64,000 nucleotides of DNA from Micromonospora echinofusca (lineage in GTDB: Bacteria; Actinomycetota; Actinomycetes; Mycobacteriales; Micromonosporaceae), in assembly GCF_900091445.1 (NCBI RefSeq), contig NZ_LT607733.1, forward strand, positions 682,001 to 746,000, read 5' to 3'. This document shows, one piece after another, positions 36,611-61,770 of this stretch (its first letter is position 1; every line of letters begins with the position of its first letter). The notes under the pieces were generated by a model. The model had not been told where the DNA came from. It made no database searches and saw only the letters and a program-made list of their open reading frames with translations. The position numbers and the translations under genes are program-made.

Positions 36611-36626
36611 CTTAGCGCTCGTTCAG
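36611..36626. promoter_or_regulatory. Putative pathway operator upstream of the hydroxybutyryl-CoA dehydrogenase gene
   Basis: Top strand CTTAGCGCTCGTTCAG; the complement CTGAACGAGCGCTAAG matches the 16-bp motif seen at four other ethylmalonyl-CoA pathway genes here. A -10 box TAGGGT follows at 36637-36642, so the motif covers the -35 position. A regulator bound here could block or recruit polymerase. Confidence 0.55.
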
Positions 36627-36677
36627 GCTCGCCGACTAGGGTGCTGACAGACACTCCAACAGGCGAGGGAGATAGAG

Positions 36678-37526
36678 ATGGCGGGTCGACTCGCGGTCGT
36701 CGGTGCCGGGCTGATGGGTTCGGGCATCGCCCAGGTGGCGGCGCAGGCGGGCTGGCAGGTGACCCTGCGGGACCTGGACGACGCGGCCACCGGGCGCGGC
36801 ATGGCCGGGATCCGGAAGTCGCTGGAGAAGTTCGCCGAGAAGGGGAAGATCGAGGCGTCCGACGTCGAGGCGACCCTGGCCCGGATCACCCCGACCACCG
36901 AGCTGGAGGCGGCTGCCGACGCGGACATCGTGGTCGAGGCGGTCTTCGAGCGGCTGGAGATCAAGCACGAGGTGTTCCGCGCGCTGGACAAGATCTGCAA
37001 GGCCGACGTGGTGCTCGCGACCAACACCTCGGCCATCCCGGTGACGCAGATCGCCGCGGTGACCGGGCGTCCGGAGGCGGTCGTCGGCACCCACTTCTTC
37101 TCGCCGGTGCCGATGATGAAGCTCTGCGAGCTGGTGCGCGGCTACAAGACCAGCGACGCGACGCTGGCGGCGGCGAAGACGTTCGCCGAGGAGATCGGCA
37201 AGACCGTCGTGGTGGTCAATCGGGACATCGCGGGCTTCGTCACCACCCGGCTGATCTCGGCCCTGCTCGTCGAGGCCGTCAAGCTGGTCGAGGCGGGCGT
37301 GGTCTCGGCAGAGGACCTGGACACCGCCTGCCGGCTCGGCTTCGGCCACGCCATGGGCCCGCTGGCCACCGCCGACCTGACCGGCGTGGACGTGCTCATG
37401 CACGCCACGAAGAACATCCACACCGACACCGCGGACCAGAAGTTCTTCCCGCCGGAGCTGCTCCAGCGCATGGTCACCGCCGGCGACCTGGGCCGCAAGA
37501 GCGGCAAGGGCTTCTACACGTACTGA
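36678..37526 (+). CDS. 3-hydroxybutyryl-CoA dehydrogenase
   Basis: NAD(P)-dependent oxidoreductase interconverting acetoacetyl-CoA and 3-hydroxybutyryl-CoA, 282 residues, standard length. The N-terminal Rossmann motif is VVGAGLMGSGIAQVA, the catalytic His is in VGTHFFSPVPMMKL, and the C-terminal dimerisation domain has GFGHAMGPLATADLTG and RKSGKGFYTY. ATG at 36678 follows GGGAGATAGAG. Single-gene unit ending at a perfect bidirectional terminator. A second, double-length homologue lies at 50.4 kb; both carry the same operator-like motif upstream. Likely role: reduction step toward crotonyl-CoA for Ccr. Confidence 0.93.
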   Translation: MAGRLAVVGAGLMGSGIAQVAAQAGWQVTLRDLDDAATGRGMAGIRKSLEKFAEKGKIEASDVEATLARITPTTELEAAADADIVVEAVFERLEIKHEVFRALDKICKADVVLATNTSAIPVTQIAAVTGRPEAVVGTHFFSPVPMMKLCELVRGYKTSDATLAAAKTFAEEIGKTVVVVNRDIAGFVTTRLISALLVEAVKLVEAGVVSAEDLDTACRLGFGHAMGPLATADLTGVDVLMHATKNIHTDTADQKFFPPELLQRMVTAGDLGRKSGKGFYTY

Positions 37527-37536
37527 GTCGGCGCGG

Positions 37537-37566
37537 CGGACGGGGGCGGTGACCCGCCCCCGTCCG
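37537..37566. terminator. Bidirectional terminator
   Basis: Perfect 13-bp stem (37537-37549 with 37554-37566), 4-nt loop, filling the 42-base gap between the dehydrogenase gene and the convergent ABC permease gene. Confidence 0.85.
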
Positions 37567-37568
37567 GC

Positions 37569-38414
37569 TCAGCCGTCGCGCTTGGTCGTCCAGCGGAACG
37601 TGGTCAGGCAGAGCACCAGGCCGATCACGCACCAGGCCACGAGCACCAGGGCGACCCGGTCCAGCTCGAACGAGCCGCCGGGCTCGCGGGCGCCGAAGGC
37701 GTCCGGCAGGAAGACCGAGCGCAGGCCCTGGCACATCCACTTCAGCGGGAAGAGCGCCGCCACCTGCTGCATCCACGTCGGCAGCTCGGTGAAGACGAAG
37801 AACACCCCGGAGATGAACTGGAGCACCAGCGCGACCGGCGTGACGACCGCCGAGCCGCTGCGGGCGGTGCGGGCCAGCGACGAGATGGCGATGCCGCACA
37901 GGGTGCAGGCGGTGACGCCGAGCACCGACACCCAGCCGAAGGTCAGCCACTTCGCGGCGGTGCCGGGCAGCTCCAGGTCGAACAGCGCCACCGAGACCGC
38001 GAGCAGCAGCACCGTCTCGGCGATGCCGATCGCCACCACCATGATCACCTTGCCGGCGAACCAGACCCACTTCGGCATCGGCGTGCCCCGGTAGCGCTTG
38101 AGCACGCCCCGGTCCCGCTCGATCGGGATCCAGATGCCCAGGTTCTGGAAGCTCACGGTCATCAGGCCGGTGGCGATCATGCCGGTGATGAAGTACTGCG
38201 TGTAGCTGACCCCGGGGGCGATCTCGTCGTCGAAGATCGCCGCGAAGATCAGGATCATGATGACCGGGAAGCCCATCGTGAAGACGACGGACTCCCGGCT
38301 GCGCAGGAACTGGGTGATCTCCAGCCGGCTCTGCCGCAGGCTGAGGGCGACCGGGCCGGGCCGCCGGGCCGGCGCCGTGGTGGCCGGCGCGGCCGGCTTC
38401 GTCGTGGTGGTCAT
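37569..38414 (-). CDS. ABC-2 type transporter permease
   Basis: Membrane partner of the ATPase encoded just upstream, 281 residues. A Thr/Ala/Pro-rich cytoplasmic N-terminus is followed by six hydrophobic segments, starting VVFTMGFPVIMILIFAAIF and including LVLQFISGVFFVF. This is the DrrB-like ABC-2 permease layout. ATG at 38414 overlaps the ATPase stop (ATGA), so the pair is translationally coupled. Probably exports a lipophilic compound or lipid; substrate unknown. Confidence 0.87.
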   Translation of the reverse strand: MTTTTKPAAPATTAPARRPGPVALSLRQSRLEITQFLRSRESVVFTMGFPVIMILIFAAIFDDEIAPGVSYTQYFITGMIATGLMTVSFQNLGIWIPIERDRGVLKRYRGTPMPKWVWFAGKVIMVVAIGIAETVLLLAVSVALFDLELPGTAAKWLTFGWVSVLGVTACTLCGIAISSLARTARSGSAVVTPVALVLQFISGVFFVFTELPTWMQQVAALFPLKWMCQGLRSVFLPDAFGAREPGGSFELDRVALVLVAWCVIGLVLCLTTFRWTTKRDG

Positions 38415-39259
38415 CGGTGTCCGATCATGCGCAGGTAGATGTCCTCCAGGGTCGGCCGGGTCACCGTCAGGCCCGGGACCTCGCCGCCGAAGCGCGCGGC
38501 CAGCTCCGCCACCAGCGCCGTCGGCGTCGCGCTCTCCGCCGTCTGCCGCGCCCCCTCCGGCGTACGCCAGGAGACCGTCGCCAGGGCCTCGCGCCGGTTG
38601 CCGAGCTGGTCGGGCGTGGCCACCTCGACCACCCGGCCGCCCGCGATGACGCCGACCCGGTCGGCGAGGGACTCCGCCTCGTCGAGGTAGTGGGTGGTGA
38701 GCACGATGGTGGTGCCGGCGGCGGCCAGGTCGCGGATCAGCTCCCAGAACTCCCGGCGCGCCTCCGGGTCGAATCCGGTGGTCGGCTCGTCGAGGAAGAG
38801 CAGCTCGGGGCGGCCGACGATGCCGAGCGCCACGTCGAGCCGGCGCTTCTGCCCGCCCGAGAGGGTGTGCGTACGGGCCTTCGCCTTGCCGGCCAGCCCG
38901 ACCCGCTCGACGACCTTGTCGGGGTCGTCCGCGTCGGCGTAGAAGCCGGCGAAGTGGCGCACCACCTCGGCGACCGTCAGCTCGTCGAACTCGCCGGTGC
39001 CCTGGAGCACGATGCCCACCCGCGAGCGCCAGTCCGGCGCCGGGCGGGCCGGGTCGCTGCCGAGGACGTCGACGTCGCCGGCGTCGCGCCGCCGGTAGCC
39101 CTCCAGGATCTCGACGGTGGTGGTCTTGCCGGCGCCGTTGGGGCCGAGGAGGGCGAAGACCTCGCCGCGGTGGACGTCGAGGTCCACGCCCGCGACGGCG
39201 ACGTTGTCCCCGTACGCCTTGCGCAGCCCCCGCACGGAGATCGCCAGCTCGTCATGCAT
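38411..39259 (-). CDS. ABC transporter ATP-binding protein (DrrA-like)
   Basis: ATPase of a two-gene exporter, 282 residues. Walker A LLGPNGAGKTTTVEIL, signature LSGGQKRRLDVALG, Walker B LLFLDEPTTGFD and the His-switch TTHYLDEAE are intact. The last 70 residues are a DrrA-type regulatory tail ending TLEDIYLRMIGHR. ATG at 39259 is chosen as the first Met before the conserved ISVRGLRKAYG. It is divergent from the B12 mutase gene with 151 bases between starts. Confidence 0.9.
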   Translation of the reverse strand: MHDELAISVRGLRKAYGDNVAVAGVDLDVHRGEVFALLGPNGAGKTTTVEILEGYRRRDAGDVDVLGSDPARPAPDWRSRVGIVLQGTGEFDELTVAEVVRHFAGFYADADDPDKVVERVGLAGKAKARTHTLSGGQKRRLDVALGIVGRPELLFLDEPTTGFDPEARREFWELIRDLAAAGTTIVLTTHYLDEAESLADRVGVIAGGRVVEVATPDQLGNRREALATVSWRTPEGARQTAESATPTALVAELAARFGGEVPGLTVTRPTLEDIYLRMIGHR

Positions 39260-61229: not shown

Positions 61230-61260
61230 GCCGGCCCCCGCCCAGGTGACGGGGGCCGGC
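61230..61260 (-). terminator. Terminator of the epimerase gene
   Basis: Perfect 11-bp stem GCCGGCCCCCG/CGGGGGCCGGC with a 9-nt loop, 8 bases past the stop of the minus-strand gene at 61268. Confidence 0.82.
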
Positions 61261-61267
61261 GGCGGGG

Positions 61268-61741
61268 TCAGTGCCCGGCGGCGGGCTCGACGAGTTCGAC
61301 CAGCACTCCGCCGGCGTCCTTCGGGTGGACGAAGTTGACGCGCGAGTTGGCGGTGCCGCGCTTCGGGGTGTCGTAGAGCAGCTTCACGCCCCGCTCGCGC
61401 AGCTTCGCGCAGGCGACGTCGATGTCCGCCACGGTGTACGCCACCTGCTGCACGCCCGGGCCCTTCTTGTCGAGGAACTTGGCGATGGTCGATTCCGGGC
61501 TCAGCGGGGCGAGCAGTTGCACGCAGCCGCCCTCGGCGTCCGGGCCCACGGCCAGCATCGCCTCGCGTACGCCCTGTTCGGCGTTCACCTCGGTGTGCAC
61601 GCAGCGCATCCCGAAGGTGCGCTGGTAGAAGTCGATCGCGGCGTCCAGGTCGGCGACGGCGACCCCGACGTGGTCGATGCGGCGCAGGCCGATGTCTGTG
61701 ACATAGTCGGCAGCGGTCTCGACGGGGGAGTTCTCAGCCAT
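61268..61741 (-). CDS. mce: Methylmalonyl-CoA / ethylmalonyl-CoA epimerase
   Basis: VOC-fold epimerase that converts the 2S and 2R forms of methylmalonyl-CoA and ethylmalonyl-CoA, 157 residues. The metal-binding His is in [14 protein letters not shown], with [13 protein letters not shown] in the second half and the final Glu in [10 protein letters not shown]. In the ethylmalonyl-CoA route it links Ccr to the B12 mutase. ATG 61741 has minus-strand CAGACT (61748-61753) 6 bases upstream, so the mRNA is probably leaderless. Divergent from the thiolase gene with 60 bases between starts and one operator candidate between them. Confidence 0.92.
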
Positions 61742-61747
61742 GGCGCT

Positions 61748-61753
61748 AGTCTG
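61748..61753 (-). promoter_or_regulatory. -10 box of a leaderless promoter (mce)
   Basis: Minus-strand CAGACT, 6 bases before ATG 61741; one mismatch to TANNNT. The operator candidate adjoins it. Confidence 0.5.
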
Positions 61754-61754
61754 A

Positions 61755-61770
61755 CCGAACAATCGTTAAG
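61755..61770. promoter_or_regulatory. Putative pathway operator shared by mce and the thiolase gene
   Basis: CCGAACAATCGTTAAG, a member of the shared 16-bp motif, located between the divergent genes. It lies one base from the mce -10 box and 31 bases before the thiolase ATG, so it could control both directions. Confidence 0.6.

Follow-up and report, generated by a model that had tools for sequence, protein, structure and literature searches.

Two putative operators at five promoters of the ethylmalonyl-CoA route in Micromonospora echinofusca

Introduction

Crotonyl-CoA carboxylase/reductase and ethylmalonyl-CoA mutase lie on the way from acetate assimilation to the ethylmalonyl and methylmalonyl extender units of polyketides. 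In a 64,000-nucleotide stretch of Micromonospora echinofusca (the window; contig NZ_LT607733.1, C1:682001-746000 of the 7.0-Mb single-contig genome G000), look-alike 16-mers precede five transcription units of the ethylmalonyl-CoA (EMC) route: meaA, ccr, hbd, a double 3-hydroxyacyl-CoA dehydrogenase gene and the divergent mce/thiolase pair. A sequence-only reading had described these 16-mers, with correct coordinates and invariant letters, as one motif bound by one acyl-CoA-responsive TetR regulator of this route. Do the five sites belong to one operator? Our data suggest, with a probability of about 0.72, that they are better explained as two different repressor-type operators that together cover the five promoters: a B-type palindrome at three of them, putatively the operator of an AccR/BkaR-like TetR protein, and an A-type palindrome at meaA and ccr. 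A mutase promoter just past the window carries both palindromes.

The AccR/BkaR/PccD class of TetR regulators is known in actinomycetes. AccR of Streptomyces avermitilis represses the MCC-like accD1A1-hmgL-fadE4 genes through a 16-nt palindrome, GTTAA-N6-TTAAC, and also acts on echA8, echA9 and fadE2 (PMC10933834); acetyl-, propionyl- and methylcrotonyl-CoA are named as its ligands (PMC8546615). BkaR of Mycobacterium smegmatis, a dimer, controls branched-chain keto-acid genes (10 genes) through the 16-bp core GTTA(N)T(N4)A(N)TAAC (PMC3920632). PccD (Saccharopolyspora erythraea / Mycolicibacterium), called a BkaR homologue, controls propionyl-CoA carboxylase (PMC11596240); its printed motif, t/aTGACGg/cTGt/cTGt/a, is unlike both palindromes described here. 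CcrR of Methylobacterium extorquens is likewise a TetR regulator of an EMC gene, but it belongs to another phylum and is an activator according to a title cited in PMC4606968, by which title alone it is set apart. The sequence-only reading knew of no such regulon in actinomycetes. The class itself is published. The literature searched, a weak negative with subscription papers outside its reach, neither mentions the A-type palindrome nor puts ccr or meaA under the control of an AccR-type protein.

Results

The putative operators and the genes they precede are listed first. Window genes were named from Pfam/NCBIfam matches, and -10-like hexamers were picked by eye.

36611..36626, minus strand: putative B-type operator (CTGAACGAGCGCTAAG) upstream of hbd, by consensus and matrix, conserved
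50338..50353, minus strand: putative B-type operator (TTGAACGACCATTAAG) upstream of the double 3-hydroxyacyl-CoA dehydrogenase gene, by consensus and matrix, conserved
61755..61770, plus strand: putative B-type operator CCGAACAATCGTTAAG in the divergent mce/thiolase promoter, by consensus and matrix, conserved
39382..39397, plus strand: putative A-type site GTGACTGAACGGTAAC at meaA, 1 mismatch, overlapping the 16-mer at 39386-39401
61113..61128, minus strand: putative A-type site GCTACTGTTCAGTAAC at ccr, 1 mismatch, overlapping the 16-mer at 61117-61132
36678..37526, plus strand: hbd, 3-hydroxybutyryl-CoA dehydrogenase (Pfam/NCBIfam)
39411..41417, plus strand: meaA-type acyl-CoA mutase (Pfam/NCBIfam)
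50385..52202, plus strand: double 3-hydroxyacyl-CoA dehydrogenase (Pfam/NCBIfam)
59628..60983, minus strand: ccr, crotonyl-CoA carboxylase/reductase (TIGR01751, 612 bits, cut-off 379)
61268..61741, minus strand: mce, methylmalonyl-CoA epimerase (TIGR03081)
61802..63001, plus strand: acetyl-CoA acetyltransferase, the thiolase (profile match)

The B-type palindrome, CTKAACGNNCGTTMAG, is found at hbd, the double dehydrogenase and mce/thiolase. Its consensus CTKAACGANCGTTMAG, allowed up to 3 mismatches, matches only these three places in the window, with 6 strand-hits against 1.91 expected, a count equalled in 1 of 100 shuffles. An outside matrix, built from 29 sites of other genera with no window sites, scored mce at 23.3, hbd at 21.7, the double dehydrogenase at 17.9, ccr at 11.1 and meaA at 7.9, the last in sixth rank below an unrelated place at 4214 (8.5); its 29 sites had been found through the consensus of the sequence-only reading and picked for their genes, so it is not wholly independent. 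In 300 Markov simulations the maxima averaged 12.5 with a 95% point of 17.4. Three window matches score at least 15 against 0.16 expected, four at least 10 against 1.94, and five at least 8 against 4.91. Therefore, hbd, the double dehydrogenase and mce exceed chance, whereas ccr and meaA, as members of the B motif, do not.

The latter two instead fit a different palindrome, GTTACY-N4-RGTAAC, placed 4 bp aside of the 16-mers first described. At one mismatch or fewer, only 39382 and 61113 match it in the window, and hbd, the double dehydrogenase and mce miss it by 5. The whole genome holds 25 such places, which corresponds to 0.23 expected per window; at up to 2 mismatches there are 276 strand-hits against 130 for the reversed control. 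The 3' end of the meaA site makes a TAACTT -10-like hexamer (39394-39399), and TAACGT follows at the ccr site (61111-61116, minus strand). Because of this overlap, repression would be the likeliest mode of action. Near the hbd B site, a -10-like TAGGGT lies at 36637-36642 (plus strand).

All five places are kept across the genus Micromonospora, to which the nearest named relatives of the ccr locus belong (M. marina, 95%). In meaA promoters, the A-type palindrome has 1 mismatch in 25 of 27 genomes and 2 in the other two. At ccr, the letters flanking the palindrome vary and CTACCGTTCAG is kept in 23 related promoters, the window copy being CTACTGTTCAG; in the set of 23 loci taken with a looser anchor, L044 starts with ACTACC and L057 ends with TAGC. 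The meaA alignment was anchored on TAACTTA and one ccr alignment on the palindrome, which makes the conservation of those columns a product of the anchoring. The hbd promoters keep CTTAGC..CGTTCAG or close variants around a variable centre. Two of 30 fall outside the search expression: L151 has CTGAACATGCGTTCAG, and the stretch taken in L160 contains a repeat, its site being visible in another alignment. A second conserved element precedes the meaA site:

39359..39376, no strand assigned: conserved element CTGTGTGGTTTTCCACAG upstream of meaA, itself or as a close variant in 27 Micromonospora promoters

A close meaA is absent from 4 of 31 Micromonospora genomes (G001, G003, G008, G012), where the best match reaches 40-45%.

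The B-type operator recurs well beyond the window. At up to 2 mismatches the consensus gives 30 strand-hits (18 places) in this genome against 7 for the reversed pattern, as the sequence-only reading had expected of a real regulon, and 253 against 46 when counts are summed over nine genomes of the family. The count of one of these, G041, is inflated by six copies of one repeat, CCGAACGATCGTGCAG (C1 places 124707, 717419, 1363542, 4208527, 5434454 and 5493985), perhaps a mobile element. Genes beyond the window were mostly named by reading proteins from a simple codon-usage gene finder, without HMM check; TetR proteins and the mcd- and mcl-like proteins were compared with profiles or structures. 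Named in this way, 11 of the 18 places lie upstream of hbd, the double dehydrogenase, mce/thiolase and eight more: the mutase large subunit (746585, just past the window) and small subunit (438026), PPDK (1050941), an M24 peptidase/acyl-CoA dehydrogenase (3142311), ilvE (4911697), MCC beta (6430845), an acyl-CoA carboxylase alpha subunit (5486206) and an acyl-CoA dehydrogenase (5632532). Of the remaining seven, four are intragenic (74715, 174392, 2823425, 3411754), one lacks a clear promoter (6312384) and two lie upstream of an unrelated TetR/efflux pair (670183, 670202). At the last of these, C1:670183-670217, two tandem perfect CTGACCGATCGGTCAG palindromes stand ahead of a TetR and a transporter-like gene.

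Where family loci centred on ccr extend far enough to cover them, the B sites of mce/thiolase, the mutase and the double dehydrogenase are in place in most; L054 has only the mutase site and L060 none. Among 40 stretches of other genera, hand-picked from the matches listed in family genomes, 25 have acyl-CoA or branched-chain genes adjoining the B site, including EtfB, and 15 do not. The regulon that the sequence-only reading had assigned to the EMC route is therefore real, but it is wider than that route and takes in propionyl-CoA, leucine and other short-chain acyl-CoA genes.

The A-type palindrome would mark a second, putative regulon. Exact copies number 69 in 26 family genomes against 1 for the reversed control and are present in 22 of the 26. 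Of 61 loci, 32 lie ahead of acyl-CoA or acetyl-CoA genes: FadE5-like (11), EtfD-like (9), thioesterase (4) and EtfB (2), with one each for thiolase, crotonase, isocitrate lyase, ccr, an mch-like MaoC protein and an mcl-like protein. In this genome, 9 of the 19 places inspected among the 25 precede acyl-CoA-type genes, with exact sites at thioesterase, FadE5-like and EtfD-like genes. An exact site also stands at ccr in another genus (L384). Of the 52 loci L061-L112, 51 from outside the family and L063, 19 have the palindrome ahead of ccr at 1 mismatch or fewer, none of them in Streptomyces or Kribbella. Outside the family it is also found ahead of the double dehydrogenase (L078, L082, L104) and mce/thiolase (L082, L107); thus the division found in Micromonospora does not hold everywhere. 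In L392 (G050), an exact copy has an isocitrate-lyase-like gene on one side and a RamB/ScfR-like regulator gene on the other, both named by eye, which suggests that the operator serves the glyoxylate route there.

Further EMC genes were expected to carry the one motif. The mcd candidate, whose best PDB match is FadE3, has 6es9 as its second match, which we take to be methylsuccinyl-CoA dehydrogenase. A 1-mismatch A site touches a weak B site there, so both palindromes are found at this gene. The mch and mcl candidates (the latter with malyl/beta-methylmalyl-CoA lyase as best PDB match) carry only the A-type palindrome; for each candidate an exact copy occurs in one other genome, and in this genome the sites have 2 mismatches, which means little alone. 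At the mutase promoter, GTTACC-N4-GGTAC stands 22-23 bp ahead of the B site in 18 of 21 loci (at most 2 mismatches; L051, L054 and L055 are the exceptions), and its spacer changes.

Which proteins could bind the two operators? For B, the candidate is an AccR/BkaR-like TetR protein encoded at C1:6434071-6434694 (TetR_N domain, PF00440, E 4.5e-17). Its nearest structures are 4g12 and 6yj2 (E 2.2e-42) and 6yl2 (2.5e-42), the next following at 5.2e-28. PDB 4g12 is called Fad35R in PMC4418694, the available text of which lacks the words Rv2506 and BkaR; we infer that 4g12 is BkaR. MCC/acyl-CoA carboxylase genes, named from sequence, are linked to the AccR-like gene. It has a match in 57 of 61 family genomes (E<=1e-30), a single one in 56 of the 57 and two in G080; the genomes without a match (G042, G044, G072, G097) each comprise at least 430 contigs. 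In two other genera the B-type palindrome precedes this very gene, so the sequence-only expectation of a TetR gene under the same palindrome holds there but not in Micromonospora. In 14 of the best 30 family loci, a B site scoring at least 20 lies no more than 110 bp from the match start, and the reversed sequence reaches 8.5 at most; one of these loci, L320, is also in the matrix, and L334 and L335 are of the same genus. A B matrix of sites from this genome, three of them in the window, was run on 36 of the 41 TetR_N loci of this genome (all its TetR_N matches, with short flanks), where its best score was 9.4, and also on the loci of three more.

Class-wide, 28 of 79 genomes, this one counted, have an AccR-like match at E<=1e-25. 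A strict AccR-class site in the same 16-bp register, typically GTTAATGAGCGTTAAC or GTTAGTGACGATTAAC, the published BkaR/AccR type, stands ahead of the orthologue in 18 of the 24 loci examined from outside the family. The B site shares the register of both AccR and BkaR sites. Unlike the AccR site, its outer pair is mostly not G..C, position 3 is T or G, and CG..CG stands inside; the outer G..C pair occurs in 28 of 28 strict outside sites versus 0 of 9 strict ones within the family, where two sites keep a one-sided G. The targets also differ from those named above for AccR, including hbd, epimerase/thiolase, the mutase subunits, PPDK and ilvE. The AccR operator itself, GTTAA-N6-TTAAC, had no match at up to 2 mismatches in 18 kb around the AccR-like gene of this genome. 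All 30 family proteins have GVTGPALYHHF as their recognition helix, and all 22 readable proteins from outside the family (24 of 29 loci, L361-L365 omitted, two of the 24 being unreadable) have Y[RK]HF; compared with BkaR, if 4g12 is that protein, Y-H-H-F replaces Y-R-H-F. This helix difference may be the cause of the operator difference.

For A, a scan of the 41 TetR loci of this genome gave three places at 2 mismatches and none better, two of them upstream of TetR genes (C1:6287052 and C1:235750). The first gene, C1:6287052-6287642 (L448), adjoins SCP2, acyl-CoA dehydrogenase and CoA-ligase-like genes and is the remaining, weak candidate. In 30 promoters of its group, A is never exact and has 1 mismatch in 10, 2 in 15 and 3 in 5; the reversed control has at least 3 mismatches in 30 of 30. 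The element conserved ahead of these genes (L454-L483) is a longer inverted repeat of the TACTCGTGCGTAA..TTACGCACGAGTA type, partly A-like, and is probably their own operator. This TetR does not occur wherever A sites are: 40 of 61 genomes have a match (E<=1e-30), and at that threshold G043, G046, G050, G053 and G062 have exact A sites but no match. Among the tested neighbor proteins of exact A loci, none is TetR-like.

A TetR gene lies upstream of ccr on the opposite strand in L064, L065, L073, L077, L082, L084, L093, L096, L104, L107 and L112. Ten of these 11 loci have the A-type palindrome ahead of ccr, and the opposite-strand protein is a possible local ccr regulator. None of the TetR proteins of this genome is a clear orthologue of the one linked to ccr in Pseudonocardiales (best E 1.4e-13, different helix). 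In many Streptomyces loci, a different TetR gene stands upstream of ccr, and the A-type palindrome is absent.

Discussion

The sequence-only reading found something real, joined two things as one, and was right about a TetR-size operator and, for three of the five sites, about the regulator class, the exceptions being meaA and ccr. Judged from the published behavior of AccR, a TetR dimer at the B sites would cover or flank the promoter and dissociate once short-chain acyl-CoAs bind. The A-type palindrome would be the operator of a second, putative regulator with meaA, ccr, the mcd candidate and genes of beta-oxidation type as targets; as its sites overlap TAACTT and TAACGT, the bound protein may block the polymerase. 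At the mutase promoter, which has both putative operators, two circuits would meet on one carbon-assimilation route.

Several observations weigh against these two operators and their assignment. Of the 61 A loci, 29 do not lie ahead of acyl-CoA genes, 21 preceding other genes (several secreted hydrolases) and 8 having no predicted start within 300 bp. Operator use is not fixed: ccr has B-type sites in Hamadaea and Catellatospora, and at EtfB one genome shows B and a different one A. The nearest NCBIfam model for the AccR-like protein, SACE_7040 (NF050111), is matched at 230.7 bits, below its curated cut-off of 250, and a B site is missing ahead of the AccR-like gene in 16 of the 30 family loci, among them those of this genome and of two other Micromonospora. 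Finally, the A-type palindrome alone leaves unexplained why 23 of 27 meaA promoters retain the spacer GAAC and 23 of 23 ccr promoters retain GTTC; at meaA, the outer letters of the 5' arm vary (6 of 27) more than the spacer.

These spacers would fit a purposeful overlap of the A-type palindrome with a B half-site (CTGAAC) at meaA and ccr, both regulators acting there, and the dual sites at the mutase and the mcd candidate point the same way. However, exact A sites elsewhere have arbitrary spacers and the meaA spacer is changed in L140, L144, L135 and L126, and we consider such an overlap unlikely. Another TetR protein might bind the B operator, such as that at C1:4416803-4417402, near an AidB/acyl-CoA-dehydrogenase-like gene, which has a B-like TTGAACCATCGTTCAC 8 bp upstream of its predicted start. 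As the genus-wide B regulator it was rejected, since an orthologue occurs in only 15 of 41 genus genomes whereas B sites are genus-wide, and a different TetR at B seems improbable. Similarly improbable is that the AccR-like regulator binds A and B as two affinity classes of one site. Both are 16-bp palindromes of the same outline with TTA/TAA arms, both occur at the mutase promoter, and the AccR-class site of L354 has the right arm GTAAC, but the other AccR-type sites class-wide have A or G, not C, as the fifth base. It is very unlikely that the meaA and ccr elements are core promoter of the -10 region and no operator: their hexamers do overlap the 3' arm and, at meaA, bases past the palindrome are as conserved as the palindrome, yet the palindrome exceeds its control 69 to 1 in the family and also precedes ccr in other orders. 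Hardly credible is a single regulator with one degenerate palindrome at all five promoters, meaA and ccr being weak half-site targets, for although all five 16-mers share GAAC, meaA, ccr and hbd share CTGAAC, a matrix of sites from this genome ranks the five top in the window (three of its inputs being window sites) and full B sites stand at ccr in Hamadaea (L059, 20.5) and Catellatospora (L056, 19.6), with window sites kept out of the matrix meaA and ccr do not rise above the noise, and these two are the sole near matches to A in 64 kb.

Returning to two operators, a fuller picture can be drawn, to which we would give even odds. In Micromonospora, the EMC route may be split between two crossing regulons. 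A second regulator, its A operator shared with fatty-acid oxidation, would own ccr, ecm/meaA, mcd and perhaps mch and mcl, and the AccR-type regulator, with operator and recognition helix co-evolved (Arg/Lys to His), would own the shared short-chain steps. The mutase promoter would integrate both, and ccr and EtfB would move between operators across the family.

If ccr and meaA answer to an operator other than that of the propionyl-CoA and leucine genes, engineers would learn which repressor to remove for each precursor. In addition, the paired difference of operator and recognition helix within one family would offer a natural case of repressor-operator co-evolution, testable by residue and base swaps.

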